Shown: positions 1 to 21,454 of the stretch, piece by piece
Layout of the letters: each line of letters begins with the position of its first letter
Numbering within the stretch: position 1 is the stretch's first letter
IMG/VR virus record: IMGVR_UViG_3300031539_000262
Location: 1-27,066 of that record
From: a virus
Length of the DNA: 27,066 nucleotides
Strand: one strand, 5' to 3'
Program-made: the position numbers and the translations under genes
Notes under the pieces: generated by a model
Database searches by the model: none
What the model saw: the letters and a program-made list of their open reading frames with translations, nothing else
What the model was told of the DNA's origin: nothing

Positions 1-471
1 GATATACAGCGCTACGCCTTTGCCCCCGTCGATATCGTGAAAGGCGATCCGGCCGCCGGCACGGACTAATCGGCCGAACGCAACGTAATCGCAGATCGCC
101 CGGCTGCAGCGATGGTCGCCGTCGATCAGGAGAAAATCGATCGGCGCCGGCACCGCAGACCAGTCCAGCCACGGACTTGCCGCGGCGATAAGATTGACGT
201 TGTCCCGCAGGCCGAGCTGCTCGATATTCGCCGACCACTTGGCTTTCGGGTAAGGCTCGATACAGGTCAGCATCCCCCCGTTATCTTTTGCCACCCGGCC
301 TAAGACCATCGATGAGCAGCCGTCCATCGAGCCGATCTCGACGATCGTCTTTGCCCCGATTTCCCTGGCCGTCCTGTCCAGCAATTCGAGATCGTTTACC
401 GTCATCCTCCGATTGCCGCGGATGCTAATCTCCTGATAGTCCGGCCGAGTCTCTTCAGTCGTTTGCTCCAT
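1..471 (-). CDS. Class I SAM-dependent methyltransferase (partial, runs off left edge)
   Basis: An open frame of 157 codons starts at ATG 471 and continues past base 1, so the C-terminus is missing. It has a Rossmann methyltransferase signature: VEIGSMDGCSS (motif I, SAM-binding glycine loop), then CIEPYP at the end of the next strand and the acidic FLLIDGDHRCS block typical of Methyltransf_24-like enzymes, followed by GGRIAFHDID. A good Shine-Dalgarno (AAAGGAT) lies 6 bases before the ATG, and the start overlaps the end of the upstream gene by 17 bp. It is the last visible gene of the late operon. Enzymes of this family often methylate sugars or small molecules, but the substrate here is unknown; modification of a virion or cell-surface glycan is only a guess. 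The fold is fairly sure, the role is not. Confidence 0.8.
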   Translation of the reverse strand, partial: MEQTTEETRPDYQEISIRGNRRMTVNDLELLDRTAREIGAKTIVEIGSMDGCSSMVLGRVAKDNGGMLTCIEPYPKAKWSANIEQLGLRDNVNLIAAASPWLDWSAVPAPIDFLLIDGDHRCSRAICDYVAFGRLVRAGGRIAFHDIDGGKGVALYI

Positions 472-1596: not shown

Positions 1597-1632
1597 TAAA
1601 CTTTAGTCACTTTAGTTCACTTTTAACTTTAG
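1597..1632 (-). repeat. ACTTTAG-type intergenic word array
   Basis: On the plus strand the ACTTTAG / CACTTTAG word occurs three to four times in about 36 bases. It fills the whole space between the fibre gene's stop and the start of the glycine-rich gene. The same word is used at 3536-3577. Confidence 0.75.
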
Positions 1633-3122
1633 CTATCATACCAGTTGCTGCCATCGTGCCTCAGCATCGTCCCGGCCTCGTAATTGTCATCACCATCGGA
1701 ATTAACGACCCATTCCGGCTCCGATACGCCTTCCTCGTAACTGTCGTAAGTCGCCTCGATGACATACTTGGTCTCCGCTTCGAGATCGTAGCCCTCGCCC
1801 AGGTCCGCCGAGTGAAAGTCGCCATGGAGTTCGAATTCGTAAACTGTTAAATTCGTACCACTGTTATCGCACACAAAATATGTATTGCCCTTCGCTTTTG
1901 TAAAGCAGCCTGTGGGCGATGTCATAATACCGGAAATGTCTATCTCTAAAGAAGCCTTTGACTCCCCTGAAAGATTAAAAGCGCTTGATAAATTCCAGAA
2001 TAATATTTTATGGTTCTGCCCATCAATAACCTGCATCGTAAGTCCATCATTACTAAAAGCTACACCTTTGCAAGCATTGGTGTATGCTGAAATATCAGTT
2101 GACTGACTTGGCGTTGATGATATCGTCGTTATATCCCAAGGGGACGACATATTGTATTGAAATATCGAATCATTAAGGTTGTCTGCGGTAAATAATCTGG
2201 TTCCCGTGGGATTGAACCAACATGAATATTGGGCTTTAGTTGCAAATAAATCTCTTGATATGTGTGGAGTTGCAGCAGTTATATAATATGGAGTGTCCAA
2301 ATCAATTCGCCAGACATAACTGCCGTAACCTGCAAGATTGCCTACAATATATATTCTCGTTCCATCCGGCTTCAAATATATCCCAGAATAATCACTCGCA
2401 AAAAAGTACATAGGTTCATGGTCCCATTGATCTAACTCGTGTGATTCATTAAGCGTTGCGGTTGTTATGTCCCAAGCCGCCGATAAAATATAATGATGAA
2501 TCCCCCAATAAGACCATGACGTATTGTAACTAATACTATACATGTGCAGGCCATCTGTCGAAAAGCAAACTTCCTGCAAATATCCAGTTCCGCCTGTATT
2601 ACTTCGATAAACACCATCATAAGTATGAGCAGGATTCAGATCGGCCGCGTCGATTGTCCCGCTCGCTAGCGCATCACCCGTCGGCAGGCCGCCCGAGGTC
2701 GCCTTGATCTCGACCGTGATATCGCCTGTTATGCCATCGCCCTGGTTATCGAACAATTCCAGTTCCACCCGCGATATCTGGTGCGATATATCGGGCGTGA
2801 ATGTCTGGGCCAGAGTTACAGAATAACTCGTCCGGCCGATCGTGTATGATAAACCGCCGCCCGTCTCGTGATGCTCGAACAGCTCCTCCTGCGGTGCCTC
2901 GCTGCTGGAGCTCATACTGCTTGAACTGGATGAGCTGGATATTTGCCTGGCATAGACCCGCATATCCTCTATCCGCCGGGCGATCTCCAGATTATCCACC
3001 TCCTGGATTATACTGCCGCCCAGAACACCGCCGACATAACCCCTGTACTGAATATCGGGATTCATATCGTCCCCGTCGAAGATGTCCCGGTCGTATTCAA
3101 TTAAAGTCAGTTTACATGCCAT
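1629..3122 (-). CDS. Fibre/receptor-binding protein: head domain, Ser linker, beta-sandwich with inserted propeller-like repeats
   Basis: This 497-residue protein is modular. Residues 1-61 are paralogous to the start of the next upstream gene (shared LTLIEY, DGDD, ALGG/VLGG pattern). Residues 62-74 are a serine linker with one Met. Residues about 90-160 look like the first half of a beta-sandwich (AQTFTPDISHQISRVELELF, TVEIKATSGGLPTGDALASG), whose second half appears at about 438-497 (AETKYVIEATYD). Between them, residues about 165-435 hold five loosely repeated units of 40-50 residues with DG-x-x-(M/I)Y and (S/T)PWDITT motifs, similar to YVTN-like propeller repeats of phage tail proteins. 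The insert is visibly AT-richer than its flanks. No Shine-Dalgarno is seen; the leader is an AT-rich word. Receptor binding is inferred from position and architecture. Confidence 0.7.
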   Translation of the reverse strand: MACKLTLIEYDRDIFDGDDMNPDIQYRGYVGGVLGGSIIQEVDNLEIARRIEDMRVYARQISSSSSSSSMSSSSEAPQEELFEHHETGGGLSYTIGRTSYSVTLAQTFTPDISHQISRVELELFDNQGDGITGDITVEIKATSGGLPTGDALASGTIDAADLNPAHTYDGVYRSNTGGTGYLQEVCFSTDGLHMYSISYNTSWSYWGIHHYILSAAWDITTATLNESHELDQWDHEPMYFFASDYSGIYLKPDGTRIYIVGNLAGYGSYVWRIDLDTPYYITAATPHISRDLFATKAQYSCWFNPTGTRLFTADNLNDSIFQYNMSSPWDITTISSTPSQSTDISAYTNACKGVAFSNDGLTMQVIDGQNHKILFWNLSSAFNLSGESKASLEIDISGIMTSPTGCFTKAKGNTYFVCDNSGTNLTVYEFELHGDFHSADLGEGYDLEAETKYVIEATYDSYEEGVSEPEWVVNSDGDDNYEAGTMLRHDGSNWYDS

Positions 3123-3162
3123 TGTTAATTTTCTATTTACTATTTATTATTGACTATTTCCT
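3123..3162 (-). repeat. AT-rich TATTTATTA intergenic word array
   Basis: Intergenic spacer composed of CTATTTACTATTTATTATTG-like words. The same vocabulary recurs at 11953-11991, 13366-13393 and 21250-21281. It forms the complete leader of the downstream fibre gene, which has no recognisable Shine-Dalgarno. Confidence 0.7.
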
Positions 3163-3540
3163 TTATGCCGAAGAGCTGCTTGACGATTCGCTGCTGCTCG
3201 AACTGCTGGAGGATTCGCTGCTTGACGACTCGCTGCTGGACGACTCGCTGCTGGACGATTCACTGCTGGACGATTCGCTGCTGGACGATTCGCTGCTGGA
3301 TGATGAGCTGCTCGAAGATGAGCTCGAGCTGGATATCCCGATCAAATAATTATGAAGGTCCGAAAGCTGGGTATTGATCATTATATCGATCCTGTCCTCT
3401 TCGGTCTGCTCACCGACGGCGACCGCCGAATCCCCGCCGAGAGCCGAATTGTAATAATCCCGATACTCTAAATCGGCAGTGGTATCATCTCCATCGTAGA
3501 TGTCCTCATTGTATTCGATTAGCGTCAGTCGATAGCCCAC
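3163..3540 (-). CDS. Short fibre-associated protein ending in a 56-residue Ser/Glu tail
   Basis: The protein has 125 residues. Residues 1-69 form an acidic domain (LTLIEYNEDIYDGDD, DLEYRDYYNSALGG) matching the N-terminus of the following 497-residue protein, so the two genes are tandem paralogues. Residues 70-125 are almost only serine with single Glu residues in SSSSE units. The neighbour has the same head domain, a short Ser stretch and then a large C-terminal module; this gene looks like the version without a module. The only in-frame start is GTG 3540, itself part of an AAAGTG word array, with no Shine-Dalgarno. I do not recognise the head domain. Position after the I/J fusion suggests a structural tail-tip component. 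Confidence 0.65.
   Translation of the reverse strand: MGYRLTLIEYNEDIYDGDDTTADLEYRDYYNSALGGDSAVAVGEQTEEDRIDIMINTQLSDLHNYLIGISSSSSSSSSSSSSSESSSSESSSSESSSSESSSSESSSSESSSSSSSSESSSSSSA
3166..3333 (-). repeat. 15-bp tandem repeat encoding SSESS
   Basis: The serine tail is made of a 15-bp unit (AGCAGCGAATCGTCC on the coding strand) repeated about six times with few changes, plus 12-bp relatives. Codons of both serine families (AGC and TCN) alternate, so it is not a single-codon run. Confidence 0.85.
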
Positions 3541-3577
3541 TTTAGCTCACTTTTTACTTTAGGCACTTTAGTCACTT
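3536..3577 (-). repeat. ACTTTAG-type word array overlapping a stop and a start codon
   Basis: Second array of the ACTTTAG / TCACTT word (four copies). On the coding strand it supplies both the TAA of the upstream I/J-like gene (AGTGACTAAAGTG) and the GTG start of the short Ser-tail gene (CTAAAGTGGG). Confidence 0.7.
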
Positions 3578-5787
3578 ATCTGGTTAATCCCGACCACCCG
3601 GAACTTTTTGATAATGTCCGCCGTCGGCCCGAAAGCATAAAGATCATCTTTTTTCGGATTTACAGACCAGGTATCGGTAATCGTGACCTCCGTGCCGTCA
3701 ACGGATAATACGGTATGTGTCTCGATGGTCTCCGCCCCGGTATCGGGATGATTGACTCGAACGGCAATAGTATCGGCCGCCGATGTATTCGGCGCCGAAT
3801 CCAAAACAACCTTATTGCCGGCAAGGCTGCTGACTACGCGACCGCCCAGCCGCCACGGCTCGACTACCAGGACGATATCGCCTTTCCTGCAGGCGATGGC
3901 ATCGACTTCCGCCTCGAACTGCACCATGTACTTGAGCAGCCTGTTCTTGGCGAGCTCGTAATATAACAATCGCCAGGCCTGGGTCGCCCTCGTGACGCCG
4001 AATCCCTCGATAATCTTAGGCGCCCCGCTGTCAATCCCCGTATCGACGTGCAGCATGGGCGTCATTTCGTAGTCAAGGTCCTGGTCCTGGTAATCGATCT
4101 CCAGCTCGCCCGCCCTGTCCTCGAGGTCGATGTAATTTTTTCGATAAGTCCCCGGCTTGATATTGCCTGCCGAAAAAAGCTGGACCGGATTGCCGTCGTA
4201 AGGCTTGTCCACGAGGATCGTATAATTGCGCCCGATTTGAATCACCTCGCACCGGGCCATCGCGCAGACCTTGTTTACCGACTCCCATACGGTAATCGAT
4301 TCATCGAAAACACCGTTGAATATTATTCTCTTTTGTGTCCCACCCTCGCCGTCGAGTATCAGATCATCGTAATAGCCCGCCGCTTCGTACCATTCATCCA
4401 GATACGGAGTCAGCCTGGCAGGGTCGATTCCATCGTATCGTTCGATAGCATAGGCCGTACCGGCGCCATCTCCGGAGATGACCGGCCTGGTCATAATATC
4501 CCATATCACCCAGACCGGATTGTCCGACCATTGCAGGGACCAGGAGCTGCCGTTATAAACATTGACGATCCGGCCCTTCCTTTTGCACGATATCTGCAGA
4601 GCGCCGCTGAGATCCTCGGTAGCCAGGGCCGATATCCCGAGAAGTGCAAGGCCCGGATAGGCAAAAGCAGTATTGATCACCTCCCGATCCGTTGAAAAAT
4701 ACAGATATCTCGACATTCTGTTTTCGTGGAACAACCGGCCTGGGTTCGTTTTGGTTATCTTGATATCGCAGTGGGTCCCTTTGGTAATGCTCACGGGCGA
4801 GCCGCCCTGGTATGTTCCGTTGGAAACATAGTTTTTCTGCTTCATCGTTGACGATGAGCAGATCAGGGACTCATTAACCAAAGTGTACCAGGTCTCCGCC
4901 CCGTGCTCGGATATTTCTATCTTTACGTCGACATTTTGAACGTCCACCCCACCATCAGAGTGCACGTAATGGCCGGAATACTTGACCGCTATCTCCAGCC
5001 AGTCGAAGTCGCTGTCCGGCGTCGTCCAGGTAACCGGCCCGCCGCTATCGTCAGTATGAAGAACCTCAATCTCCGGCTGATATTCGCATTTGAGAATGCT
5101 GAAAATCGCAGTCTGGCCCATCGTTCCATTTCGCTCGTATATAGTGACATTGTCGAAATTGTCCGCAGGCTGATTATTTATATAGAGCGTATCGGCGACC
5201 ATCCCCCCATCCGGGCCATCGTTAAATGCTATAAGCATACTCAACGTCTCATTCAAACCATCAGGGGCCCGCCAGGCTGCGATGATATTGCCGTACATTT
5301 TATTGGTGCCGTATGCCCTTGGTATGGCGATCCCCTGCCTCTGGGTCGTTATGGGCGACCAGCTATACGATGGACTGCTGTCGAGCTTGGCATCATCCGG
5401 GGCCGAGCCTATTGCCCGGATAAGATATGCGATCCCGATTGATATGCCGATATTGACGGCGACCGCCCAGAGCATCGCCGAGACGGTCGCGTATCCGAGA
5501 GATGTCGCCACCCACAAAGAGACGGCATAAATGCCGCTAATGACATCCTTAATCGCCGGAATGATGACAATCTCATCACCCGCCTTCAGGGGGCATTGAT
5601 ACTGCTCTTTTTCAACTGCAGGCAGGCATTTCTGGTTCAGATAAACAATAACGTACTGCTGATCGAAGGCGTATTGACTGATTATGTCACTGAGCTGCTG
5701 GCCCGTATAAGGTATGGACTCGACGATCCTGTCCTTCTGGACCTCTAACGGATTTTTTACAACCGTTATTTTCAAATAATCATTCAT
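3568..5787 (-). CDS. Tail-tip host-specificity protein J-like, with gpI-like N-terminal domain
   Basis: I choose ATG 5787 (739 residues, MNDYLKITVVKNPLEVQ...), which overlaps the stop of the K-like gene by 8 bp; a longer upstream frame would lie inside that gene. Residues about 1-80 resemble the beta-grasp (MoaD/ThiS-like) part of tail assembly protein I (VYLNQKCLP ... AGDEIVIIPAI). Two hydrophobic stretches follow (about 82-125), then the J-type region beginning SYSWSPITTQRQGIAIPRAYG, with many beta-rich segments and the typical late part (AKNRLLKYMVQFEAEVDAIACRKGDIVLV). In lambda, I and J are separate; here they are one chain, as in many siphophages of this type. It should form the tail tip that contacts the receptor. 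It is shorter than lambda J (1132 residues), so binding may be shared with the following fibre genes. Confidence 0.85.
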   Translation of the reverse strand: MNDYLKITVVKNPLEVQKDRIVESIPYTGQQLSDIISQYAFDQQYVIVYLNQKCLPAVEKEQYQCPLKAGDEIVIIPAIKDVISGIYAVSLWVATSLGYATVSAMLWAVAVNIGISIGIAYLIRAIGSAPDDAKLDSSPSYSWSPITTQRQGIAIPRAYGTNKMYGNIIAAWRAPDGLNETLSMLIAFNDGPDGGMVADTLYINNQPADNFDNVTIYERNGTMGQTAIFSILKCEYQPEIEVLHTDDSGGPVTWTTPDSDFDWLEIAVKYSGHYVHSDGGVDVQNVDVKIEISEHGAETWYTLVNESLICSSSTMKQKNYVSNGTYQGGSPVSITKGTHCDIKITKTNPGRLFHENRMSRYLYFSTDREVINTAFAYPGLALLGISALATEDLSGALQISCKRKGRIVNVYNGSSWSLQWSDNPVWVIWDIMTRPVISGDGAGTAYAIERYDGIDPARLTPYLDEWYEAAGYYDDLILDGEGGTQKRIIFNGVFDESITVWESVNKVCAMARCEVIQIGRNYTILVDKPYDGNPVQLFSAGNIKPGTYRKNYIDLEDRAGELEIDYQDQDLDYEMTPMLHVDTGIDSGAPKIIEGFGVTRATQAWRLLYYELAKNRLLKYMVQFEAEVDAIACRKGDIVLVVEPWRLGGRVVSSLAGNKVVLDSAPNTSAADTIAVRVNHPDTGAETIETHTVLSVDGTEVTITDTWSVNPKKDDLYAFGPTADIIKKFRVVGINQISD

Positions 5788-6187
5788 GGTCTTTCGGCTG
5801 ATATCTATAATATCCTTCGATATGCAGCTTCCATTTGGGATCATCAAGAAAGCCGATATTGACGCCCATCTTCCCTGTTGTATGGATAAATCTCCTGCCA
5901 TTTTTCAGAACAAATCCGATATGCCATCTGATTTTGCCCGTATCATCGATGATCCGAAACAGGACAAGACAGTAAGGCTGCGGGCAATCGAGCCTTATAA
6001 AGCCCGTTTTTTTCTGCTCGGAAATAACCTCTCCCCTTTCCCTGTTGTCCGCAGGGACATTTATATCAGGCAGCTTAACTCCGGCCCTTTTGGCGACCTC
6101 TAAAACAAGGCCCCAGCAGTCGAAATCCGCAGGTCCTCTCGATCCTTCTTTATATGGTTTTCCGATCAGGTCATTCAGTTCCATCAT
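5780..6187 (-). CDS. NlpC/P60-type tail assembly protein, gpK-like
   Basis: ATG 6187 gives 135 residues (MMELNDLIGKPYKEG...) and overlaps the L-like gene's stop in an ATGA junction; a second ATG follows directly. The chain has the NlpC/P60 cysteine peptidase layout: catalytic Cys24 in FDCWGL, His89 in WHIGFV and a third polar residue probably His102 in FIHTT. It corresponds to the peptidase half of lambda gpK and lacks the JAB/Mov34 N-terminal domain present in lambda. It should be a tail-tip component that cuts peptidoglycan or processes a tail protein. Order L-K-(I/J) is the lambda order. Confidence 0.85.
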   Translation of the reverse strand: MMELNDLIGKPYKEGSRGPADFDCWGLVLEVAKRAGVKLPDINVPADNRERGEVISEQKKTGFIRLDCPQPYCLVLFRIIDDTGKIRWHIGFVLKNGRRFIHTTGKMGVNIGFLDDPKWKLHIEGYYRYQPKDHE

Positions 6188-6810
6188 GCAAATCTCACCG
6201 TATTGCTCCTGAGTCCAAGCTGGCCCCCGAACCGCGACAGATTGTTTTTGTCCTCGCAATCTTCAGGCGTGCCGTTGCAGGCCGTATCGGCCCCGGAATA
6301 TCCGCACTCGACGCGCTTGAATTTCCCGACATACCTGCAGTACTGGCCGAAATATCTTTTATCCGGAAATCTCCTGTTAAGCGGGCTCGGCGCTCCTAAG
6401 ACAAACGCGATCCATTCCTCGCCGGCAGAGCATCCGGTAACTATAAACTCCTCGGCCTTGGCCGACATGTCGATACTGAGATATTTCGAGTTGACGGGCG
6501 TTCTGGTTATATTGCGGCCTATCAGGCCATCGTAATCCTCGACAAAAGGAAGGACAAAATGGATCAAGTCGGCATTCGTAATACTTAGATTCAGAGTAGA
6601 TAACCTGCCCGGCTCCGATTTTTTATACGAATCCATCTGGAAATTGCATTTGTAATAAACCGTCCCCATATAAGTGACGTTCTCGATATTATCAACGAGA
6701 TGCAGCGTCTCTTCGCCTTCGATTTCAATATCGAGCAGCCACAGCCAGGCCCCTTCGCTCGAAAGTTTGTTCTTTTCTACCGCAATATATTTATCAATAT
6801 CTTCCGGCAT
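6184..6810 (-). CDS. Minor tail protein L-like (Cys4, probable Fe-S binding)
   Basis: The protein has 208 residues. The N-terminal part is beta-rich; the C-terminal part carries four cysteines, Cys158, Cys169, Cys178 and Cys185, with CGYSGAD after the second. Lambda gpL binds a 4Fe-4S cluster through four C-terminal cysteines in a similar CGYxG context and with the same last spacing (C-x6-C), so a cluster is likely here. The RFGG motif after the last Cys also fits the family. It starts two bases after the M-like gene, with GGGAG before the ATG, and ends in an ATGA overlap with the K-like gene. Role: initiator of tail-tip assembly together with M, K and I/J. Confidence 0.85.
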   Translation of the reverse strand: MPEDIDKYIAVEKNKLSSEGAWLWLLDIEIEGEETLHLVDNIENVTYMGTVYYKCNFQMDSYKKSEPGRLSTLNLSITNADLIHFVLPFVEDYDGLIGRNITRTPVNSKYLSIDMSAKAEEFIVTGCSAGEEWIAFVLGAPSPLNRRFPDKRYFGQYCRYVGKFKRVECGYSGADTACNGTPEDCEDKNNLSRFGGQLGLRSNTVRFA

Positions 6811-6812
6811 AT

Positions 6813-7283
6813 TTATGCTCCCGCACTGGATGAACTGCTCGATGAGCTGGACGATTCGGACGAGGACGATTCGGACGAGGACGATGAAGATGAGCTCGAT
6901 GACATACTGGATGAACTCGATGAGCCTGTCGTACCGAACATCTCGATATTTGCGAAATACTTATCGATACAACGTGGCTCTAAGCCGAACCGGATCGGCC
7001 TGTTGAGTCTCATTACCCACATCGTATCCGTTAATATATTGGTCCAGTTAAATGTTACCGCTCCCACCTTGATCAGGGCCTGAAAATTTTCCAAAAGGAC
7101 CTTGTCCGCCGCCGAAATATGATGATAGGTCACCGAATACAAGTCGGGTATCGTCCCGCTGAATCTCGGCCTGGTGCTTATAGCGCCTGATGCGAAATCG
7201 GCCCTTATAGTCGGATCCATTAGTTTTGTTTCGGTAAATCCCCTGTGAGATACCGCACGTGTTAATGTTGGAAACGATGCCAT
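6813..7283 (-). CDS. Minor tail protein M-like with C-terminal Ser/Glu tail
   Basis: The protein has 156 residues. Residues 1-120 match the size and place of lambda gpM (about 109 residues), directly after the tape measure and before L; the pattern of SFPTL ... PRFSG ... FNWTNI ... VMRLNRPIRF is typical of small distal-tail proteins. Residues 121-156 are a tail of serines with two Glu and one Met, ending SAGA. Such a tail is absent from lambda gpM. The start shares one base with the tape-measure stop (TAATG), so translation is coupled. The Ser tail probably projects from the tail tip, where it would be on the outside. Confidence 0.8.
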   Translation of the reverse strand: MASFPTLTRAVSHRGFTETKLMDPTIRADFASGAISTRPRFSGTIPDLYSVTYHHISAADKVLLENFQALIKVGAVTFNWTNILTDTMWVMRLNRPIRFGLEPRCIDKYFANIEMFGTTGSSSSSSMSSSSSSSSSSESSSSESSSSSSSSSSAGA

Positions 7284-9592
7284 TATTTCAACATCTTTTG
7301 CAGACTGCCTCCCTGCTTATAGTTTTGCGCTATTAACGAGATCACCCAGCTCTCACCGTCAAATTCGGGCTCACTTTTCTTCTGGATCGGCTGTCCCGAT
7401 TCGTTATAAATAATAATACTCGGTGCTGAACCGCCGCCGGCCGATCTGACTACCTTGTCCGCCGGCGCCAGCAGCTCATCTTTCTCGATAATCGCCGCCA
7501 TCTCGTTCGATTTCAGACCCCGCCCCCTCTGAAAGCTCGGGACACCATCCGGGACCCAGCCGGTGTGCCGGACAGGTACGGTCGCAAGGCCGTAAGGATT
7601 ACTCGGCGTAAACGCCTGGCCGCCGGCCCCGACGGCAGCACCCGGGCCGAACAGACTGCCGAGCGCACCGCTCAGACCGCTCATCAACGGCGCGATTGCG
7701 GCATTCTGTATCGCTCTGGCCGCCATGTCGGCCAGCATCTTCGCGAATGAATCCTGGATCGAAGTAAATACATTGACCATGAACGAACGGAAGTTCGATC
7801 CTTTCTCCCGCAGGCTCAAAAACGCGCTGCTAAGCCCGCTCTCGATAGACCGGGATGCCTCGGCGAATTTATCCGATATATAAAGTGCCGTATTCTCCAT
7901 GTCCTCCCGCAGCTCGGCTATATAGACCTCCATCGCATCCTGCCGGCTCGATATGAGCGATATAATCTCGGCGGTAAGAAGTTTCTCCTGTTCGGTCACT
8001 CCGGCCATCGTATAGCCGTGCTCGGCCATGTACGACTTGAGGTTCTCGATCTTCTCCATCCGCGTCATCGTATCGAGCGCCCGGATCGATGCCAATTTCT
8101 CGCGGGTATCGGCGACGATCTGCGCGTTGGTCCTGGCACTTACCGCCGCATCATCGGCGGCTATTGTTGTCGGCTCCGGCGGGCCCACGAACGACAGGGC
8201 CTTTGCCCGCTCGGCCATCTTCCGCATGTACTCGGCCCGCTCGGCCGGAATATTCAAGTGACCTGGCGGAAGTCTCTCCGGCTGGTAACCATTGAGCCCG
8301 AATCCTTCGTATTCACTGAAATCCAGGCCGAATCCGCCGGCCGTATCGGCCCGTTTTCGTTTTGTCGCGGCGCCGAGTTGCTTGTTCATTTCAGCCATCT
8401 TGAGCGCCCGGTATGCCCAGAAAATCGGCAGGACATTCTTGATCATACCGGCACCTTCGACCACATTGTTGGCCCAGCGAATAATCCCCGCGCGATTCTC
8501 CTCCATGGTTTCGGTCAGTGACTTTAACGCCGCCGTCTGGATCGGCGACGTGACCTCACCTAACATTATCTTAAAATTGCTCCATCGCTGCGTGGACTGC
8601 CCGATGGAATAACTGTCCGTCGCCGCCGCCTTGGCGAAGTTCGTCTGCATCCGGCCGGCCGAATCGAGATTGAGCGAGTAATCCCGGGCCAGGCCGCCTG
8701 CGTTTTTGAGCATACCTGCAAATCCGGCCACGCCTCTCATCGACGGCATAAGGACTTCGAGGTGACGGGCCTGTGCCTTGGAAAGTTTTTCCATTATCGT
8801 AATCAGCCCGCGGCCCTGTATAGACGTCTCATCCAGCGCAAAGCCCAGCTCCATCGCGACGTCACGGGACGCCTGGGTCGGATACTTGAACTGGTTGAAT
8901 ACATTCTTGAGCGCCGTGACGGCCTCGTCCGCCGTCAGTCCGGACCTGGTCATCGCCGCGATGGATGCCCCGACCGCTTCGAAATCGACCTTGAGGAACG
9001 AGGCCAGGCCGAGCACTTTGCCGATCGATTCGGCAAAATCGTTAAAGGTCATAATGCCCTGCTTGACCGAGCCGTGCATGATATCGTTGATCCGCGTCAC
9101 ATCCGAAGCCGCCATGCCGTATGCCATCATTACCCGCGCCGACGCCTTGGTAGTCACGGCCGCATCGGTGAATCCGCCCTTTGCCGATTTGACCGTCGTG
9201 GTCAGAAACTTCATCGCCTCGGCCGGTGCAATCGTGGCCGAGAGTATATCGAACATCGCTTCGGTCAGGGCGGTCTTGGACTCACCGTATGCCGCAGACA
9301 TCTTCATCAACTCTTTTCGATACGTCGGCAGATAGTGCATGGTCGCCGCATCGAGCTGTGTGGATATCTTGGCCATGCCCGTCTCGAATCCGCCGAACTC
9401 CTGACGCGAGGCCCGCAATACGTTGCCGAGTAAATAAAATCCGCCGCCGACGCCGGCAAGTCTTAGAAGGCTGCCGCCGAGCCTTTGGACGCTCCGGCCG
9501 GTAATCGTGAGATTACTGTTAAAAGAATTGATCCCCGCACGCGATTTGTCGCGTGCGATAAACTCCATTCCGACCTGGGTCATTAGTGACAT
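7283..9592 (-). CDS. Tape measure protein
   Basis: This 769-residue protein is the longest in the tail module, predicted mainly helical and alanine-rich. Residues about 85-330 match the TP901-type tape-measure core (FGGFETGMAKISTQLD, MKMSAAYGESKTALTEAMFDIL, TKASARVMMAYGMAASDVTRINDIMHG in overlapping stretches). Hydrophobic segments occur near 40-60 and about 625-660 (AIAPLMSGLSGALGSLFG), as expected for a protein that leaves the tail and helps DNA through the envelope. By the usual 1.5 angstroms per residue the tail would be roughly 115 nm. It follows the G/GT cassette as in lambda H. No Ser tract is present, fitting its place inside the tube. Confidence 0.92.
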   Translation of the reverse strand: MSLMTQVGMEFIARDKSRAGINSFNSNLTITGRSVQRLGGSLLRLAGVGGGFYLLGNVLRASRQEFGGFETGMAKISTQLDAATMHYLPTYRKELMKMSAAYGESKTALTEAMFDILSATIAPAEAMKFLTTTVKSAKGGFTDAAVTTKASARVMMAYGMAASDVTRINDIMHGSVKQGIMTFNDFAESIGKVLGLASFLKVDFEAVGASIAAMTRSGLTADEAVTALKNVFNQFKYPTQASRDVAMELGFALDETSIQGRGLITIMEKLSKAQARHLEVLMPSMRGVAGFAGMLKNAGGLARDYSLNLDSAGRMQTNFAKAAATDSYSIGQSTQRWSNFKIMLGEVTSPIQTAALKSLTETMEENRAGIIRWANNVVEGAGMIKNVLPIFWAYRALKMAEMNKQLGAATKRKRADTAGGFGLDFSEYEGFGLNGYQPERLPPGHLNIPAERAEYMRKMAERAKALSFVGPPEPTTIAADDAAVSARTNAQIVADTREKLASIRALDTMTRMEKIENLKSYMAEHGYTMAGVTEQEKLLTAEIISLISSRQDAMEVYIAELREDMENTALYISDKFAEASRSIESGLSSAFLSLREKGSNFRSFMVNVFTSIQDSFAKMLADMAARAIQNAAIAPLMSGLSGALGSLFGPGAAVGAGGQAFTPSNPYGLATVPVRHTGWVPDGVPSFQRGRGLKSNEMAAIIEKDELLAPADKVVRSAGGGSAPSIIIYNESGQPIQKKSEPEFDGESWVISLIAQNYKQGGSLQKMLK

Positions 9593-9613
9593 TGATTATA
9601 CCTATGGCATAAA

Positions 9614-9692
9614 TTTTCTATCATGTACCACGTGGGGTACATGACCGTGAACCCAACGCGGTTCATGGTTGACTATTGTTTTTTTATCTGCG
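9614..9692. repeat. 79-bp double-hairpin repeat, copy A
   Basis: Near-identical to 18397-18475 with three differences by my reading. It holds two hairpins in a row: ATGTACC/GGTACAT and CCGTGAACC/GGTTCATGG. On the coding strand its edge includes the last codons and TAA of the T frame. Confidence 0.85.
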
Positions 9693-10330
9693 GTCAAACA
9701 TTTCTTCGATATCTTCATCCGCCTGCTCTTCGGCCGGCTCGAAATCGAATTCCTTTAAGATGCCCTTGATCTTGCCGCCCCGCATCGCCTGGATTATTTT
9801 CGCCGCCCGGTAGTCGGCCCTCTTCTGGCCCCAGGGATCGATCTGCTCGAGCAGCTCTAACTGCTTTTCTTCGAAGGCGCTGAGCCGCTGTTTTACTTCG
9901 GCTACTGACCAGCCCCTGGCTTCTGCGATCCGGAACCGGAGTCGCTCTCTTCGGCCCCGCTCTCCGGAGAGTCCGAGTTTTTTACCAGCTCCTCGATTTC
10001 GCCTGTCGCCATGCCGGAAAGCTTGCGGGCGATATCGAGGATCGGATCAGAGACCTTCGCCGGCACCATACAGAGCCGGCCGATGTCCTTCTCGCCGAAC
10101 AGCCGCTTGCCATGCTGATCGTGGATGGTTAGCTGCATCAGTACCGCCCGGGCGTTCGTCAATTTGACCTGCCTGGTCCCGGCCTTTACCGAAACGACGT
10201 TATTCTCGTACTCATCTTTCTGACCGGAAGTCAGGCCGTAGATCCAGATATCGCCTAACTGAGGGACCGTCTTTCTCTCGCGCGGGACCGGGCACTTGAA
10301 GAACCCTTCCTTTGTCGCCCAAGTTTCCAT
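9684..10330 (-). CDS. Tail assembly chaperone GT-like, made by -1 frameshift
   Basis: The G frame (10330 to 9902) continues in the -1 frame from base 9977 to the TAA at 9684-9686, adding 97 residues for a product of about 215. The T part (WSVAEVKQRLSAFEEKQLELLEQIDPWGQKRADYRAAKI...) has no usable start of its own, stays open through the overlap and has a helical, acidic-ended composition like lambda gpT. The slip site is A AAA AAC read as GTA AAA AAC, with a CTCTCCGGAGAG stem-loop five bases beyond. As in lambda, G and GT should bind the tape measure and recruit tail-tube subunits in a fixed ratio. Position between tube and tape measure agrees. Confidence 0.85.
9902..10330 (-). CDS. Tail assembly chaperone G-like (unshifted product)
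   Basis: This is the 142-residue product made when no frameshift occurs. It begins METWATKEGFFKCPVP after a strong Shine-Dalgarno (AAAGGAG, eight bases before ATG). The beta-rich first half and the helical segment at 94-118 (DPILDIARKLSGMATGEIEELV) fit lambda gpG and related chaperones. Residues after 118 are acidic, Ser/Gly/Pro-rich low complexity and probably unimportant for fold, since the frame is left at this point in the longer product. It lies just after the tail tube gene and two GC-rich hairpins. Confidence 0.8.
   Translation of the reverse strand: METWATKEGFFKCPVPRERKTVPQLGDIWIYGLTSGQKDEYENNVVSVKAGTRQVKLTNARAVLMQLTIHDQHGKRLFGEKDIGRLCMVPAKVSDPILDIARKLSGMATGEIEELVKNSDSPESGAEESDSGSGSQKPGAGQ
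9960..9983 (-). promoter_or_regulatory. Programmed -1 ribosomal frameshift site
   Basis: Coding-strand heptamer A AAA AAC (9983-9977) lies in the right phase of the G frame (GTA AAA AAC, residues 116-118). After a five-base spacer comes CTCTCCGGAGAG (9971-9960), which can fold into a short GC-containing stem-loop. Slip site, spacer and structure are the standard parts of a bacterial -1 frameshift signal. Confidence 0.85.
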
Positions 10331-10362
10331 TTGAAAATTCTCCTTTCGTTATAAAATATTAG

Positions 10363-10414
10363 CCCCCTGCATCGCAGGGGGTTTTCGTCCTATTGATCCC
10401 CGACAGTGCCGGGG
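10363..10414. other. Two GC-rich hairpins between tail tube and chaperone genes
   Basis: The first hairpin is CCCCCTGC-ATC-GCAGGGGG (10363-10381), an eight-pair stem; the second is CCCCG/CGGGG (10398-10414). The first has a T-run only on the plus-strand side (GGGGGTTTT); in the direction of transcription it is followed by weakly U-rich TAATATTTTAT. It may attenuate the transcript or protect its ends rather than terminate it fully. Confidence 0.55.
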
Positions 10415-10431
10415 TTTAAAAGATATCCCCC

Positions 10432-10866
10432 CTATGAGCTCGAGGAGCTGCTGCTCGATGAGCTGCTTGATGAGCTGCTCGATGAGCTGCTGTTGAAGCC
10501 CGGCATACCGCTGCATCGGATCTCGATCGGGTGCGTGGCCGCCGTGCGCAAAGGCATCTCAAGCGATGCCGACCTGATATGTCCGCTCACATTCAGTACC
10601 TTGGTGTCTTTGACAAGCTTCCACGTCTGATTTGCGCCTGCGAAGGCGTCGAGGATCGTTTCGAACAGGGTCGGCTGAAACAGCAGGGTCGCAGTAATCA
10701 CGCCGGGGTCCTTGAACCCGCCTTCGTACTCGTTCCACTGACCGGGCGAGTCGGCGTTAGTGACATCGATCTCGTCTTCGGTCAGTCCGTTCCATGTAAA
10801 ATTCGTCAGCTCACCTATTACACCGCTCACCGAGCCGGTCAATACCCATCCGTATAAAGTAGCCAT
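10432..10866 (-). CDS. Major tail tube protein, V-like, with C-terminal poly-Ser
   Basis: I choose ATG 10866 (144 residues, MATLYGWVLTGSVSG...) because CGGAGA lies 8 bases before it; the longer open frame upstream only translates a CCGCGTAATC repeat word. Residues 1-125 are beta-rich with the pattern of small tail tube proteins (DEIDVTNADSPGQW, EYEGGFKDPGVITATLLFQP, SASLEMPLRTAATHPIEI). The last 19 residues are all serine. Lambda gpV carries an Ig-like domain on the outside of the tube at the same end; here the serine tail takes that place. Position between U-like and G-like genes agrees with lambda order. Each tube has many copies, so the tail surface would be studded with serine. Confidence 0.85.
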   Translation of the reverse strand: MATLYGWVLTGSVSGVIGELTNFTWNGLTEDEIDVTNADSPGQWNEYEGGFKDPGVITATLLFQPTLFETILDAFAGANQTWKLVKDTKVLNVSGHIRSASLEMPLRTAATHPIEIRCSGMPGFNSSSSSSSSSSSSSSSSSSS

Positions 10867-10897
10867 TTTTTTTCTCCGATCATATTTGCTAATTTTG

Positions 10898-10926
10898 AAT
10901 CCGCGTAATCTGCGCAATCCGCGGTT
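10898..10926 (-). repeat. CCGCGTAATC word array
   Basis: Words AATCCGCGTAATCTGCGCAA and TCCGCGG stand between the U-like stop and the tail tube Shine-Dalgarno. Same vocabulary as 11992-12027. Translated by chance, it would add MRRLRGF to the tail tube. Confidence 0.7.
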
Positions 10927-10932
10927 AAATTC

Positions 10933-11400
10933 CTAACTTTGCGAATACGGATCCGTTTTATTGACTTCGTAAAGAACATCTATATTGACCGCGATGCCCG
11001 CAACCTGCGGATCCGCGATGAACTTCGTGGCACTTTTCAGCAGTATCTCGCCCAGCCCATCCAGCTCCCAGTTGTCGCCGGTCATCAGCTTCTTTTCGAT
11101 ATCACTCCGGACCTGGTTGAGCCTGGTATCTATGGCGGTCGTCGCATCGTCCGAATCGATTACCAGGGCCTGAAGCGTGAACGGCTGACGCCAGAGCACC
11201 ACCGTATTCGAATCGGTCTCGATGACCGCATCCTCTTCCTGCTCGACTATCACCGTCCCGTCCGTATTGATGTCACTTTCAAGATGGATCCGCTTTGGCC
11301 GAACGGCCGTAAGGGTCTGGTTGAAGCCCGCCGCGACAGTGATCTCATCGACTAAGGCCGCTATCTTTACCGCGATCTGTTCTACGATCGGTACGCTCAT
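10933..11400 (-). CDS. Tail terminator-like protein (U position)
   Basis: The protein has 155 residues starting MSVPIVEQIAVKIAALVDEIT. Its start overlaps the Z-like stop by four bases (ATGA), as expected for coupled tail genes. The alternating helix-strand pattern with VLWRQPFTLQALVID, RLNQVRSDIEKKLM and a C-terminal NIDVLYEVNKTDPY is typical of tail terminators that cap the tube and join it to the head. Sequence similarity to lambda gpU is weak to my eye, and I rely on order (Z, this gene, tube). No Ser tract. Alternative: another head-tail connector of similar size. Confidence 0.65.
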   Translation of the reverse strand: MSVPIVEQIAVKIAALVDEITVAAGFNQTLTAVRPKRIHLESDINTDGTVIVEQEEDAVIETDSNTVVLWRQPFTLQALVIDSDDATTAIDTRLNQVRSDIEKKLMTGDNWELDGLGEILLKSATKFIADPQVAGIAVNIDVLYEVNKTDPYSQS

Positions 11401-11951
11401 GCCGGCAGCCTCGCTTTCAGAATGAGCCTGACCTGGTCGTGGATGTTCTTACTGAGTCGCTGCATGGATTCGCGGTAGATTGCATCCGCCTGCCCCTGGG
11501 CACTGACAAAGACCTGGCCGAGTGACGGCCCTCTCAGCTCCGATATGGGAAGCCTGCCGCTTAGTTTTCGCTTGAATACGCCGGTATGCCCGCTTTTCAT
11601 CGTCGCTACAAATGCGTGCCGGATAAGGACCCGCTCACCGGCCTTTTTGTACGTAATGCCCTTTTTTGTCTGGCGTGCTCCGAATCGAATAAGAGGGATC
11701 CGCTTGCGGCTGATCTTTACGACCGACTGCCAGTTCCTGTAGCTCGCCCTGGTGAGCGTGACACGCTCGCGAATATCCTTGACCTTCAGGCCGAGCTTCT
11801 GTGAAAATACCCGGCTGACCTTCGTCCTCGCCTCGGTCCCCGTCCGGTTCAGGGCCCGGCTCATTACCTTCGGAAGTGAATTCTTAGGAAAGCCTCTAAG
11901 CTCGCGCTCGAGCCGCTTGATCTTGTCGTTGTCGTAGCGAATCTCAATCAT
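11397..11951 (-). CDS. Minor tail protein Z-like
   Basis: This 184-residue protein is strongly basic. The N-terminal ALNRTGTEARTKVSRVFSQ segment and the phrase about KVKDIRERVTLTRAS match the Phage_tail_Z (GPZ) family, which completes the tail end that meets the head. A conserved-looking GHTGVFKR and SELRGPSLGQVF follow in the second half, also typical of the family. The ATG at 11951 has no Shine-Dalgarno; its leader is an AT-rich word array followed by a CCGCGTAAT array. The stop overlaps the U-like start. Order FII-Z-U is the lambda order. Confidence 0.88.
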   Translation of the reverse strand: MIEIRYDNDKIKRLERELRGFPKNSLPKVMSRALNRTGTEARTKVSRVFSQKLGLKVKDIRERVTLTRASYRNWQSVVKISRKRIPLIRFGARQTKKGITYKKAGERVLIRHAFVATMKSGHTGVFKRKLSGRLPISELRGPSLGQVFVSAQGQADAIYRESMQRLSKNIHDQVRLILKARLPA

Positions 11952-11952
11952 C

Positions 11953-12027
11953 GTACATTTATTATTTACTATTTATTATTTACTATTTTTTTAATCCGCG
12001 TAATCCGCGTAATCCGCGTAATCCGCG
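11953..12027 (-). repeat. Composite word array: ATTATTTACT words then four TAATCCGCG copies
   Basis: Bases 11953-11991 repeat TTATTATTTACTATT-like words; 11992-12027 is four perfect head-to-tail copies of the nine-base TAATCCGCG. Together they make up the whole leader of the Z-like gene. Confidence 0.9.
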
Positions 12028-12029
12028 GT

Positions 12030-12353
12030 TCAACTTGCCGCCAGCAATATCAGCCCGGCATCCTGATTGAGTATCTCGGTGATCCTCAGCTTTTTCGGCT
12101 TTTCGCCGATCCTTTTGGCACATTCGATCTTATCGCCGCCGGTATCGACTTCGTCGCTGGCGATCCCTTCGCAAGAACTGTTCATTACCAGGGCGTTGAC
12201 GACCGGCATCCTGCCCGGCTCCGAGCGAGTGATAACGGCACTTATCCGCCTGCCCGATCCGTTGACAGGAAAATAAGTCACCGTCTCGGCGCCGGGCAGC
12301 AGGAAAAAATTTCCCGCCGCCGCGGCTAATGTGTCGTCAAATACATCCGACAT
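12030..12353 (-). CDS. Head-tail joining protein FII-like
   Basis: The protein has 107 residues. It lies between the E-type capsid and Z-like genes, the place of lambda FI/FII. The pattern FFLLPGAETVTYFPVNGSGRRISAVITR in overlapping parts, and the C-terminal RITEILNQDAGLILLAA, matches the small beta-barrel head-tail joining proteins that bind the completed head and receive the tail. Length is close to lambda gpFII (117). The leader is a CAGATCTCAAATTTCAGATC-type word array, and no clear Shine-Dalgarno is present. Its stop is three bases beyond a TAATCCGCG array. Confidence 0.75.
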   Translation of the reverse strand: MSDVFDDTLAAAAGNFFLLPGAETVTYFPVNGSGRRISAVITRSEPGRMPVVNALVMNSSCEGIASDEVDTGGDKIECAKRIGEKPKKLRITEILNQDAGLILLAAS

Positions 12354-12384
12354 TCTCAGATCTCAAATTTCAGATCACTTTTGT

Positions 12385-13344
12385 TTAGGCGTCGATCAAT
12401 AACAGGTGCGCAAAGTAGGGATCGAACACCTTTTCCTGCACATACTGCTCGACCCGGATGATTTCGCTCTTCGTCTGCTCTTCCCGGTAGCTCTCGACGT
12501 ACTCCAGGTCGCTGATATATGCATCCCATCGCATAGTCCGGCCCAACTGCGGTTCGGTCATCGGCAGGCCCTCGGATCCCAGGACAGCGACCATCGCGTA
12601 ATCGTCCGGCCAGATCTCCGCGCCGGTGAAATCCTGGCCCTCATCCGCCGAGTTATAGACCGCCTGGCCGACGATCAGGTCCTGAATACCCAGGATGGAC
12701 GCCATCGCCGCACGCAGCATCGCCTCGGTGAGCACGGTTACGCCGGGGAACTTCGCCAGGATCTGGGTATTGTTCATTAAATTAATCATGGACGATTCCG
12801 AGATGATCAGAGCGTTCGGCGGCAGACCGCAGTTCAACCTGACTATTTCCCTGACTGTTTGAATCTGCTTGATAACCTCGCTGCCGACGGCGTCCCACGG
12901 TGCCCCGGAATAATCCGTGTACAGGGCTGCCGTACCCGATGGCCAGGTCGTGGTATTAAAGATCGCCTGCTTTACACGAAGTTCGCGGGCAAGTCTCATC
13001 TTAATCTTAATGGCTTGCGTCTTCTCGACCTCCGCGTCGAAATCGTCGACGTAGTTCTCGACGTCTTCGTCGGTGACCTTACCCTCGAGCCCATGATCGA
13101 CACAGAGATAATCCATATCGTCCATGTAGAGATCTACGCGATTGAATGTCGCTCCGTTGGCATGCGCCGTATCCGGGATGGTCAGGTTTTTGCGCTTGCA
13201 AACGCTCATCGTCGCCGATTTTTTCCGAACGCCCTTAACCGGCAGTATCTCGTCGGCGATAAAACGCATTCGGTCCGTCGAATACTCGTGGAAGGCTGCT
13301 CCCAGGTCCATTCGAGGTATTGCATGTGTGCTTTTCTGAATCAT
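12385..13344 (-). CDS. Major capsid protein, lambda gpE family
   Basis: The protein has 319 residues, close to lambda gpE (341). N-terminal FIADEILPVKGVRKKSATM, the middle AELRV-like LARELRVKQAIFNTTTW, PPNALIISESSMINLMNN, and the C-terminal TEPQLGRTMRWDAYISDLEYVESYREEQTKSEI parts follow the Phage_cap_E pattern, including the region around the P-domain and the final dimer-forming segment. A clear Shine-Dalgarno (GGGAG) stands nine bases before ATG 13344. No Ser tail is present, unlike the decoration proteins next to it. The capsid is built from several hundred copies after the protease has cut the scaffold. Confidence 0.92.
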   Translation of the reverse strand: MIQKSTHAIPRMDLGAAFHEYSTDRMRFIADEILPVKGVRKKSATMSVCKRKNLTIPDTAHANGATFNRVDLYMDDMDYLCVDHGLEGKVTDEDVENYVDDFDAEVEKTQAIKIKMRLARELRVKQAIFNTTTWPSGTAALYTDYSGAPWDAVGSEVIKQIQTVREIVRLNCGLPPNALIISESSMINLMNNTQILAKFPGVTVLTEAMLRAAMASILGIQDLIVGQAVYNSADEGQDFTGAEIWPDDYAMVAVLGSEGLPMTEPQLGRTMRWDAYISDLEYVESYREEQTKSEIIRVEQYVQEKVFDPYFAHLLLIDA

Positions 13345-13394
13345 TTTTCGACTCCCTAATTCAATTGTCTATTAACTATTTTCAAATCTCAAAC

Positions 13395-13913
13395 CTACGA
13401 GCTGCTCGATGAGCTGCTGGACGATTCGCTGCTGGACGAACTGCTGGACGATTCGCTGCTGCTCGATGAACTGCTGCTCGATGAGCTGCTCGATGATTCG
13501 CTGCTGGATGAGCTGCTCGATGAGCTGCTGGACGATGAGCTGCTCGATGAGCTCGACTGCTGGTATCCGGGATGCGGAAGGACCTCGATGACACTGCCGT
13601 CCCCGGATGCGGCGTCTAAGGCCGTGCCGATCACTTTGGTCCCCGTCGCCGCGATCTTGCCGCTTGCCGCCGCGTAAACCCTGCGGCCGGCTATGATCGC
13701 CCCGGATGCCGTCATTTTGGAAGAGCCGCCGTGCCTGTCCAGGCGGACGGCGACGGATTCGCCATCGTCCGAGTCCTTCTGCGTCACGCCGATCCCGTAA
13801 TCGACGGCGTCGGCCAGCATTACCGTGCCATCGTTCGAAATTACGACTCGCAGGAATGCATCCATGTCCTCGCCCGCCTCGAATGTTTTTGGGCTGTTTG
13901 ACTGTATTGTCAT
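13395..13913 (-). CDS. Capsid decoration protein, DUF2190-like, copy 2, with 53-residue Ser/Glu tail
   Basis: The 172-residue protein is a tandem duplicate of the next upstream gene; residues 1-119 differ at only about a dozen places. The body (KTFEAGEDMDAFLRVVISNDG, ADYGIGVTQKDSDDGE, IIAGRRVYAAASGKI, GTALDAASGDGSVIEVL) has the DUF2190 / gpD-like pattern of small trimeric capsid-stabilising proteins. Residues 120-172 are serine with three Glu. A good Shine-Dalgarno (AGGAGA) lies five bases before ATG 13913. The tail follows the last body strand and would point outward. Sequence decay between copies is slight, which suggests a recent duplication, while the tail lengths differ greatly (53 against 11). 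Confidence 0.8.
   Translation of the reverse strand: MTIQSNSPKTFEAGEDMDAFLRVVISNDGTVMLADAVDYGIGVTQKDSDDGESVAVRLDRHGGSSKMTASGAIIAGRRVYAAASGKIAATGTKVIGTALDAASGDGSVIEVLPHPGYQQSSSSSSSSSSSSSSSSSSSESSSSSSSSSSSSSSESSSSSSSSESSSSSSSSS
13398..13556 (-). repeat. 12/15-bp tandem repeats encoding the decoration-protein Ser tail
   Basis: Coding-strand units AGCAGCTCATCG (SSSS) and AGCAGCGAATCGTCC (SSESS) alternate through 159 bp. Both serine codon families are mixed. It is not a CRISPR array: there are no spacers, and it is in frame. Confidence 0.85.
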
Positions 13914-13952
13914 GATTATCTCCTGTATTTTGTTTTCCGGCGGCGATTTTTA

Positions 13953-14345
13953 CTAAGTGCTCGATGAACTCGAGCTCGAGCTGCTCGATTGCTGGCAGCT
14001 TACGTGCGGAAGGACCTCGATGACACTGCCGTCCCCGGTTGCGGCGTCTAAGGCCGTGCCGATCACTTTGGTCCCCGTCGCCGCGATCTTGCCGCTTGCC
14101 GCCGCGTAAACCCTGCGGCCGGCTATGATCGTCCCGGATGCCGTCATTTTGGAAGAGCCGCCGTGGCTGTCCAGCCGGATTGCGACGGATTCACCATCGT
14201 CCGAGTCCTTCTGCGTCACGCCGATCCCGTAATCGGCGGCGTCGGCCAGCATGACCGTGCCATCGTTCGAAATTACGACTCGCAGGAATGCATCCATGTC
14301 CTCGCCGGCTTCGAATGTTTTCGGACTGTCACTTTGAGTTGTCAT
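13953..14345 (-). CDS. Capsid decoration protein, DUF2190-like, copy 1, short Ser tail
   Basis: This 130-residue protein shares its first 119 residues almost fully with the downstream copy, with D/N, A/V and S/R differences. It ends VSCQQ plus ten serines and one threonine. Its place directly after the protease/scaffold gene and before the capsid gene is that of lambda gpD. A strong Shine-Dalgarno (AGGAGA) is present. The extra Cys116 is not in copy 2. With two versions that differ mainly in tail length, the virion could carry a mixed coat. The DUF2190 assignment is by pattern only. Confidence 0.8.
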   Translation of the reverse strand: MTTQSDSPKTFEAGEDMDAFLRVVISNDGTVMLADAADYGIGVTQKDSDDGESVAIRLDSHGGSSKMTASGTIIAGRRVYAAASGKIAATGTKVIGTALDAATGDGSVIEVLPHVSCQQSSSSSSSSSST

Positions 14346-21237: not shown

Positions 21238-21281
21238 CTTTACATTGATTATTTTCTATTTATTATTTACTATTTTTTCGG
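21238..21281 (-). repeat. AT-rich word array at the truncation point
   Basis: It starts with a 22-base segment identical to 18383-18404 and goes on as TATTTATTATTTACTATT words. The TerL-like similarity of the upstream fragment ends exactly where this array begins. Confidence 0.75.
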
Positions 21282-21454
21282 TTCCAGTAACCCTCGATAG
21301 CCGCCGTCCCCCCGGCCAGCATATAATTATTGCTCAGCCAGTCGATCAAAGCCGGCCGGGCGCGGGGACGGAGAATGTCGCGCTCTTCCGCCTGCAGCGG
21401 AAGCACGCGAAATTGACTATTTTCGATTTGCGATTGTCGATTTTCTGCGATCAT
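21263..21454 (-). pseudogene. Truncated duplicate of the TerL N-terminus
   Basis: This 63-codon frame has residues 19-59 (LPLQAEERDILRPRARPAL ... NYMLAGGTAAIEGYWNR) matching TerL residues 10-51 at about 30 of 41 positions; the DNA is roughly three-quarters identical. It then stops within an AT-rich word. The start overlaps the stop of the upstream small gene by ATGA, exactly as expected for the original terL start, while complete TerL downstream has no such coupling. The first 15 codons (MIAENRQSQIEN) translate a CGATTGTCGATTTT word. Most likely it is the remaining 5' end of an older terL allele; a functional short peptide is possible but unlikely. Confidence 0.85.

Follow-up and report, generated by a model that had tools for sequence, protein, structure and literature searches.

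Coordinated poly-serine tails on phage head and tail proteins as putative acceptors of a virion glycan coat

The 27,066-base virus record IMGVR_UViG_3300031539_000262 (hereafter the window, meaning this whole stretch at its full length) encodes six virion proteins with poly-serine tracts, and comparison with related phages supports the view that these tracts belong together as a single, coordinated feature of virion proteins that face outward. Judged from the sequences, the poly-Ser tails are probably O-glycosylation acceptor arms that would carry a putative glycan coat on the particle. The fuller proposal, a dedicated Ser-specific virion O-glycosylation in which a TibC-like glycosyltransferase family 9 (GT9) cassette and Ser tails were added in concert to unrelated proteins to give a whole-particle glycan brush, is favoured slightly less firmly. 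The outward Ser runs, taken together with the matching sugar-transfer genes of the relatives, suggest that the particle is probably built for a sugar coat. The late operon was read on the minus strand by translation, and the genes concerned are as follows:

13395..13913, minus strand: cement protein B (PF09956 Phage_cement_2 / DUF2190; Pfam 36.0 bits, cut-off 24), with a Ser/Glu tail of 53 residues, 50 Ser and 3 Glu, at 13398-13556
13953..14345, minus strand: cement protein A, a paralogue of cement B (PF09956, 33.9 bits, cut-off 24), with a tail of 11 residues, 10 Ser (13959-13988) and then Thr
10432..10866, minus strand: major tail tube protein with a lambda gpV-N-like core, ending in 19 Ser (10435-10491)
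6813..7283, minus strand: M-like minor tail protein, assigned by sequence and position, with a tail of 36 residues, a Ser run of 33 (6825-6923) followed by AGA
3163..3540, minus strand: anchor-only protein with an 'LTLIEYN' N-terminus, assigned by sequence, with a Ser/Glu tail of 56 residues, a tract of 55 (3169-3333) plus Ala
1629..3122, minus strand: receptor/fibre protein, assigned by sequence, with an anchor-type N-terminus, an internal Ser tract of 13 residues (2901-2939) and then a large C-terminal region; relatives in L001, L004, L016 and L024
12385..13344, minus strand: major capsid protein without a Ser tract, used as the marker for relatives (capsid alignment and tree; cultured relatives annotated as capsid protein)
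1..471, minus strand: Methyltransf_24 gene truncated at the edge of the window (Pfam 66 bits, cut-off 26.3)

These six genes and their tract lengths match those of an earlier note on this DNA, and its statement that the capsid shell, tape measure, protease, portal and TerL are free of tracts holds both in the window and in the relatives that carry poly-Ser (Ser+); the L-like and J-like proteins of the window have none either. The identities of the window J-like, L-like and tape measure proteins are clear. The window tail tube matches PF16460 weakly (21.4 bits, under the cut-off of 28.4); this family is matched by 20 of the 24 tube family members at E 0.01 or better, and the assignment agrees with gene order and with homologues in cultured Streptomyces phages annotated as major tail protein. 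A search of PDB sequences with the tube profile returned Ser-driven matches only.

The tracts are not a product of chance, since 12-residue windows in 500 proteome shuffles held at most 8 Ser and never 9. Within the window tracts, the Ser codons lie in frame and comprise 67 AGC and 11 AGT versus 92 TCN, with frequent switches between the TCN and AGY families, which are disjoint and cannot be interconverted by single silent changes. Over 116 distinct tracts there are 3191 Ser codons (36% AGY) versus 53 Thr and 39 Glu residues, and the longest run of one identical codon is 5. An assembly or frameshift artefact is ruled out by the in-frame position of the tracts, the mixed codon families and their reappearance in the corresponding genes of relatives assembled independently.

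To place the tracts in a wider context, relatives were gathered from IMG/VR and GTDB contigs by capsid protein scans, and 87 capsid sequences, 43 from loci with poly-Ser open reading frames (ORFs) and 44 from loci without, were placed in a tree, on which the poly-Ser label changes five times, with good branch support for at least two of the changes. In Ser+ loci, tracts were present on 46 of 54 cement proteins, 30 of 32 tubes, 15 of 17 M-like proteins and all 11 anchor/receptor proteins, as well as on 3 of 36 tail terminators, and on none of the TerS, TerL, portal, protease, capsid, chaperone, tape measure, L or J proteins. Head and tail agree in all 55 scorable loci (37 with Ser on both, 18 on neither, 0 discordant). 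The independent switches behind this agreement, 2 supported and 4 in all, are every one concordant, and four are too few for significance, a sign test needing at least 6. A scan with the tube core retrieved 39 loci. The C-terminus is intact in 37 of these tubes, and every one of them carries a tail of 11-24 Ser, even at 29% identity; of the other two, L185 has a truncated or frameshifted ORF without the tail and L186 runs off its contig. The idea that the tracts act as one set, which relatives lacking any consistent set would have contradicted, is thus borne out by both the locus counts and the tubes. More distant tubes, from cultured phages and other Phycisphaerae genomes, stop just past the core without Ser, indicating that the Ser tail is an addition and not part of the fold. 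A habit common to Planctomycetota as a whole was also considered and is not supported, as Ser tails are absent from the distant tubes of other Phycisphaerae genomes and no poly-Ser ORF was seen in the stretches concerned. The few Ser-tailed tail terminators include those at L009 7133-7696 and L026 11907-12431.

Functionless slippage of DNA repeats could in principle produce such runs, and the tracts do show some of its marks: tandem units of 12, 15 and 27 bp were detected by TRF within several of them, and tract lengths differ between close relatives. The repeat units suggest that slippage probably alters tract length, a role it may keep. As the whole explanation it is refuted by the mixing of both Ser codon families, with identical-codon runs of 5 or fewer, and by conservation, the same genes retaining their tails at the lowest identities while about a dozen other families stay free of tracts; its probability is negligible.

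On the head, the tails are supported as exiting outward by analogy with a known fibre. A profile of the cement core hits the phi29 capsid fibre protein of solved structure (the head-fibre base gp8.5-N) as well as a capsid stabilisation protein. In phi29 gp8.5, the base that binds the capsid spans residues 1-110 and the outward-pointing fibre residues 117-280 (PMC6542822); the Ser tail of the cement protein begins near residue 120. Ser-negative relatives often have, at this site of the cement protein, some 120-260 C-terminal residues, in some cases similar to beta-helix (DUF1565) or weakly similar to LamG; the cement proteins of L027-L031 have nothing there. The Ser tail thus appears to take the display site of the head, beginning where the phi29 fibre leaves its base and where relatives place domains. 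Cement C-terminal domains are found at L059 2296-3435 (beta-helix) and L053 8699-9829 (unnamed domain), and these two are the closest Ser-negative sisters of the Ser+ phages L040, L049, L052 and L069.

For the tube, the C-terminal Ig-like domain of lambda gpV lies outside the tube, and by this analogy the Ser tail would exit outward as well. The expectation of outward-leaving tails in the earlier note therefore stands for the head, on the gp8.5-N homology and the globular domains at the site in relatives, and for the tube it would follow from the lambda comparison. Recurrence of one appendage type at exposed ends is likewise described for Ig-like and other display domains of phage heads and tails in a survey cited in PMC7602432, and the base of the gp8.5 fibre is homologous to the cement core here; unlike those Ig-like domains and the gp8.5 fibre, which are folded, the Ser homopolymer found here would be expected to lack order.

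In long Ser+ contigs, a sugar-transfer cassette lies directly downstream of the tail genes. It comprises Methyltransf_24 methyltransferases, an NAD-dependent (nucleoside-diphosphate-sugar) epimerase, a small protein with a conserved DSD/DGD motif (the DXD protein), and the glycosyltransferases GT9a and GT9b, the latter a GT9+GT4 fusion. In the relatives' cassettes GT9a and GT9b score 34.8 and 33.7 bits against Pfam PF01075 (cut-off 22). The Methyltransf_24 gene at window 1-471 is the first cassette gene and shares 44-47% identity with the methyltransferases of the L118 and L100 cassettes; L118, the same contig as L001 (capsid 83% identical), runs on into the whole cassette. The earlier reader could not see the cassette beyond this first gene.

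The cassette keeps company with Ser-rich proteins in scans of IMG/VR. The DXD protein occurs on 7 contigs, all of phages with Ser-rich proteins. GT9a occurs on 14 contigs, 13 of them from Ser+ phages or from the L129-L131 type with a Ser-rich protein and 1 distant (24%). GT9b is present at full length in 14 contigs, 14/14 with Ser-rich ORFs; in another 16 contigs the similarity is confined to a distant GT9 half, and 2 of these 16 have poly-Ser (Fisher p 8e-7 for this contrast, not corrected for kinship). By record, 10 of the 16 Ser+ ones encode GT9b and none of the 19 Ser-negative ones does; the six Ser+ records without it are contigs of 18-31 kb, and four of the Ser-negative records reach 36-44 kb. 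Family GT2 (PF00535), scanned in 20 records, was present in two cellular genomes only and in no viral record, and no match to GT9a or GT9b was found among cultured phages. A contig of a Phycisphaerae metagenome-assembled genome (MAG) carries GT9b, methyltransferases and other glycosyltransferase-like genes, with no epimerase or GT9a seen. Directly after the cassette of L100 (1148-7076), at 7080-10541, lies a 1154-aa protein with a Ser-rich stretch across residues 170-1038, and L096 9883-10935 encodes a shorter counterpart of about 350 aa (Ser 33-235).

This tight link between Ser tracts and glycosyltransferase cassette is left unexplained if poly-Ser is an unmodified hydration layer or linker, a cheap disordered polymer serving solubility and domain spacing, with the cassette unrelated. 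Such a role is unlikely yet worth keeping in view, because Ser tracts do connect domains, as in the LamG-Ser-M protein of L015, the extra domain past the tract of the anchor protein in L006 and the window receptor protein, and because poly-Ser is reported to be common in bacterial polysaccharide-binding enzymes (PMC6821194). Long Ser tracts there stand beside carbohydrate-binding domains, as in L015, but belong to cellular enzymes, whereas those described here are mostly terminal and on virions, and most cement and tube tails have nothing beyond them. The Ser tract is shifted ahead of the M-like domain at L015 16114-18860 and L017 14910-16154, L015 adding the LamG lectin-like domain.

The character of GT9b also agrees with glycan acceptor tails. 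AlphaFold2 models its first 300 residues as a GT9-type GT-B fold (pLDDT, the predicted local distance difference test, 88.7), with 3tov (Z 23.9), WaaF (22.1) and TibC (21.6) as the nearest solved structures and WaaC also near. A GD motif of the N-lobe with the catalytic Asp (G13 D14) is invariant in 20 sequences and aligns with the GD of WaaF, WaaC and 3tov. Alignments to the lipopolysaccharide (LPS) enzymes end before a four-cysteine insertion, and that to TibC runs on through its iron finger. The TibC finger is formed by Cys 339, 342, 358 and 370 (PMC4358343); four Cys at the same place are invariant in the 20 phage sequences, the first of them off the TibC spacing. TibC modifies Ser and not Thr (PMC4358343), a specificity that fits the excess of Ser over Thr in the tracts. 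On sequence and model, GT9b plausibly works like TibC. Compared with the TibC/AAH (BAHT) heptosyltransferases, it shares the GT9 fold, a four-Cys C-lobe insertion that may correspond to the iron finger and the implied multi-site Ser modification, but differs in the missing N-terminal beta-barrel, the fused GT4 domain and the presumed substrates, which are virion tails; given the first Cys spacing and the absent barrel, we do not assign it to the BAHT family.

Because LPS heptosyltransferases belong to GT9 and figure among the solved structures nearest to GT9b, and because the Ser+ phages share kinship, the cassette could instead act on the host surface (LPS, exclusion of other phages) or on phage DNA, its link to Ser tails being one of lineage only. 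We regard this as improbable, as the cassette directly adjoins the tail genes, recurs in L129, a phage with another structural module and likewise a Ser-rich protein, and encodes a four-Cys finger where the protein-glycosylating TibC has its own.

Several observations nevertheless weigh against glycosylation of the tails by the cassette. The window itself contains just the first cassette gene, a methyltransferase, and the L026 cassette is missing two genes that others have, those for the epimerase and GT9a. No Pfam family matches the DXD protein and its AlphaFold2 model was too poor to use (pLDDT 51), which leaves motif and context as the grounds for a GT-A assignment. GT9b has no counterpart of the N-terminal beta-barrel (TibC residues 1-97), residue 1 of the model aligning to TibC 97, and TibC needs its barrel. 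Finger-type GT9 homologues in phages of 100-200 kb are accompanied by almost no poly-Ser in the stretches read. Finally, the Ser+ phages are related, and the head/tail and cassette associations are thus not phylogenetically independent. GT9 proteins with the same four-Cys finger occur in L154-L169, large phages of which many span 100-200 kb. In L214, from the same class as the Phycisphaerae MAG, a finger-type GT9 gene at 8883-9785 lies about 3.4 kb from a 1644-aa frame (from 13163) with Ser-rich stretches.

Of the several purposes put forward in the earlier note, O-glycosylation is backed strongly, if circumstantially, by the glycosyltransferase cassette linked to the tails. Phosphorylation, which the note had also offered, is not supported, no candidate phage kinase having been noticed near the tails, though no search was aimed at kinases. 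Adhesive or ion-binding arms, or arms phosphorylated by host kinases, are very improbable: Glu is periodic in some tails, but it is rare overall beside Ser.

Under the glycan-acceptor hypothesis, the phage-encoded cassette would make a modified sugar or short glycan late in infection, and its proteins would attach this sugar to Ser of the cement, tail tube, M-like and fibre-anchor tails. The glycosylated flexible tails might then form a brush-like glycan coat across head and tail, with Ser tracts serving as linkers where a display domain follows, and the coat could provide shielding, surface or matrix interaction, or stability. If the head is T=7 and the tape measure fixes how long the tube is, each particle would expose on the order of 16,000 tail serines. 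We infer the action of the cassette on these tails, the kind of sugar and the purpose of the coat.

By analogy, the closest precedent is virion glycosylation in mycobacteriophages. In Che8, Corndog and Myrna, phage-made glycans are reported at the C-termini of capsid and tail tube (Freeman et al. 2023, as cited in PMC12619734 and PMC12363180), and phage-encoded glycosyltransferases act on both proteins. The presumed acceptors of the present system differ in being long Ser homopolymers, also on cement, M-like and fibre-anchor proteins, and its enzymes in being GT9-type with a cysteine finger. If the hypothesis is correct, one appendage would be coordinated across unrelated structural proteins and paired with its own modifying enzymes, and a Ser tail would be a genetically simple acceptor for sugar-coating a nanoparticle. 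Virion glycosylation would gain a sequence signature searchable in metagenomes, poly-Ser tracts and finger-type GT9 enzymes, unconnected in the literature found, would be joined, and acceptor specificity would be directly testable by co-expression.

No close cultured phage relative was found: the best cultured match of the window capsid protein is 26% identical, and for the window cement protein a single match among cultured phages was found, at 39.5% identity. A scan of genome contigs with the single capsid query gave no match, and the capsid profile led to the Phycisphaerae MAG contig. As this contig shows no obvious cellular genes, a Phycisphaerae host is a lead only.

Two further features of the window lie apart from the tracts. 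A 63-aa ORF at 21263-21454, upstream of the real TerL gene (18497-20407), copies the N-terminus of TerL and represents a partial duplication. In addition, the gap between two late genes at 11957-12027 holds short tandem arrays of a 14 bp unit, ATTTATTATTTACT (x2.3), and a 9 bp unit, TAATCCGCG (x4).

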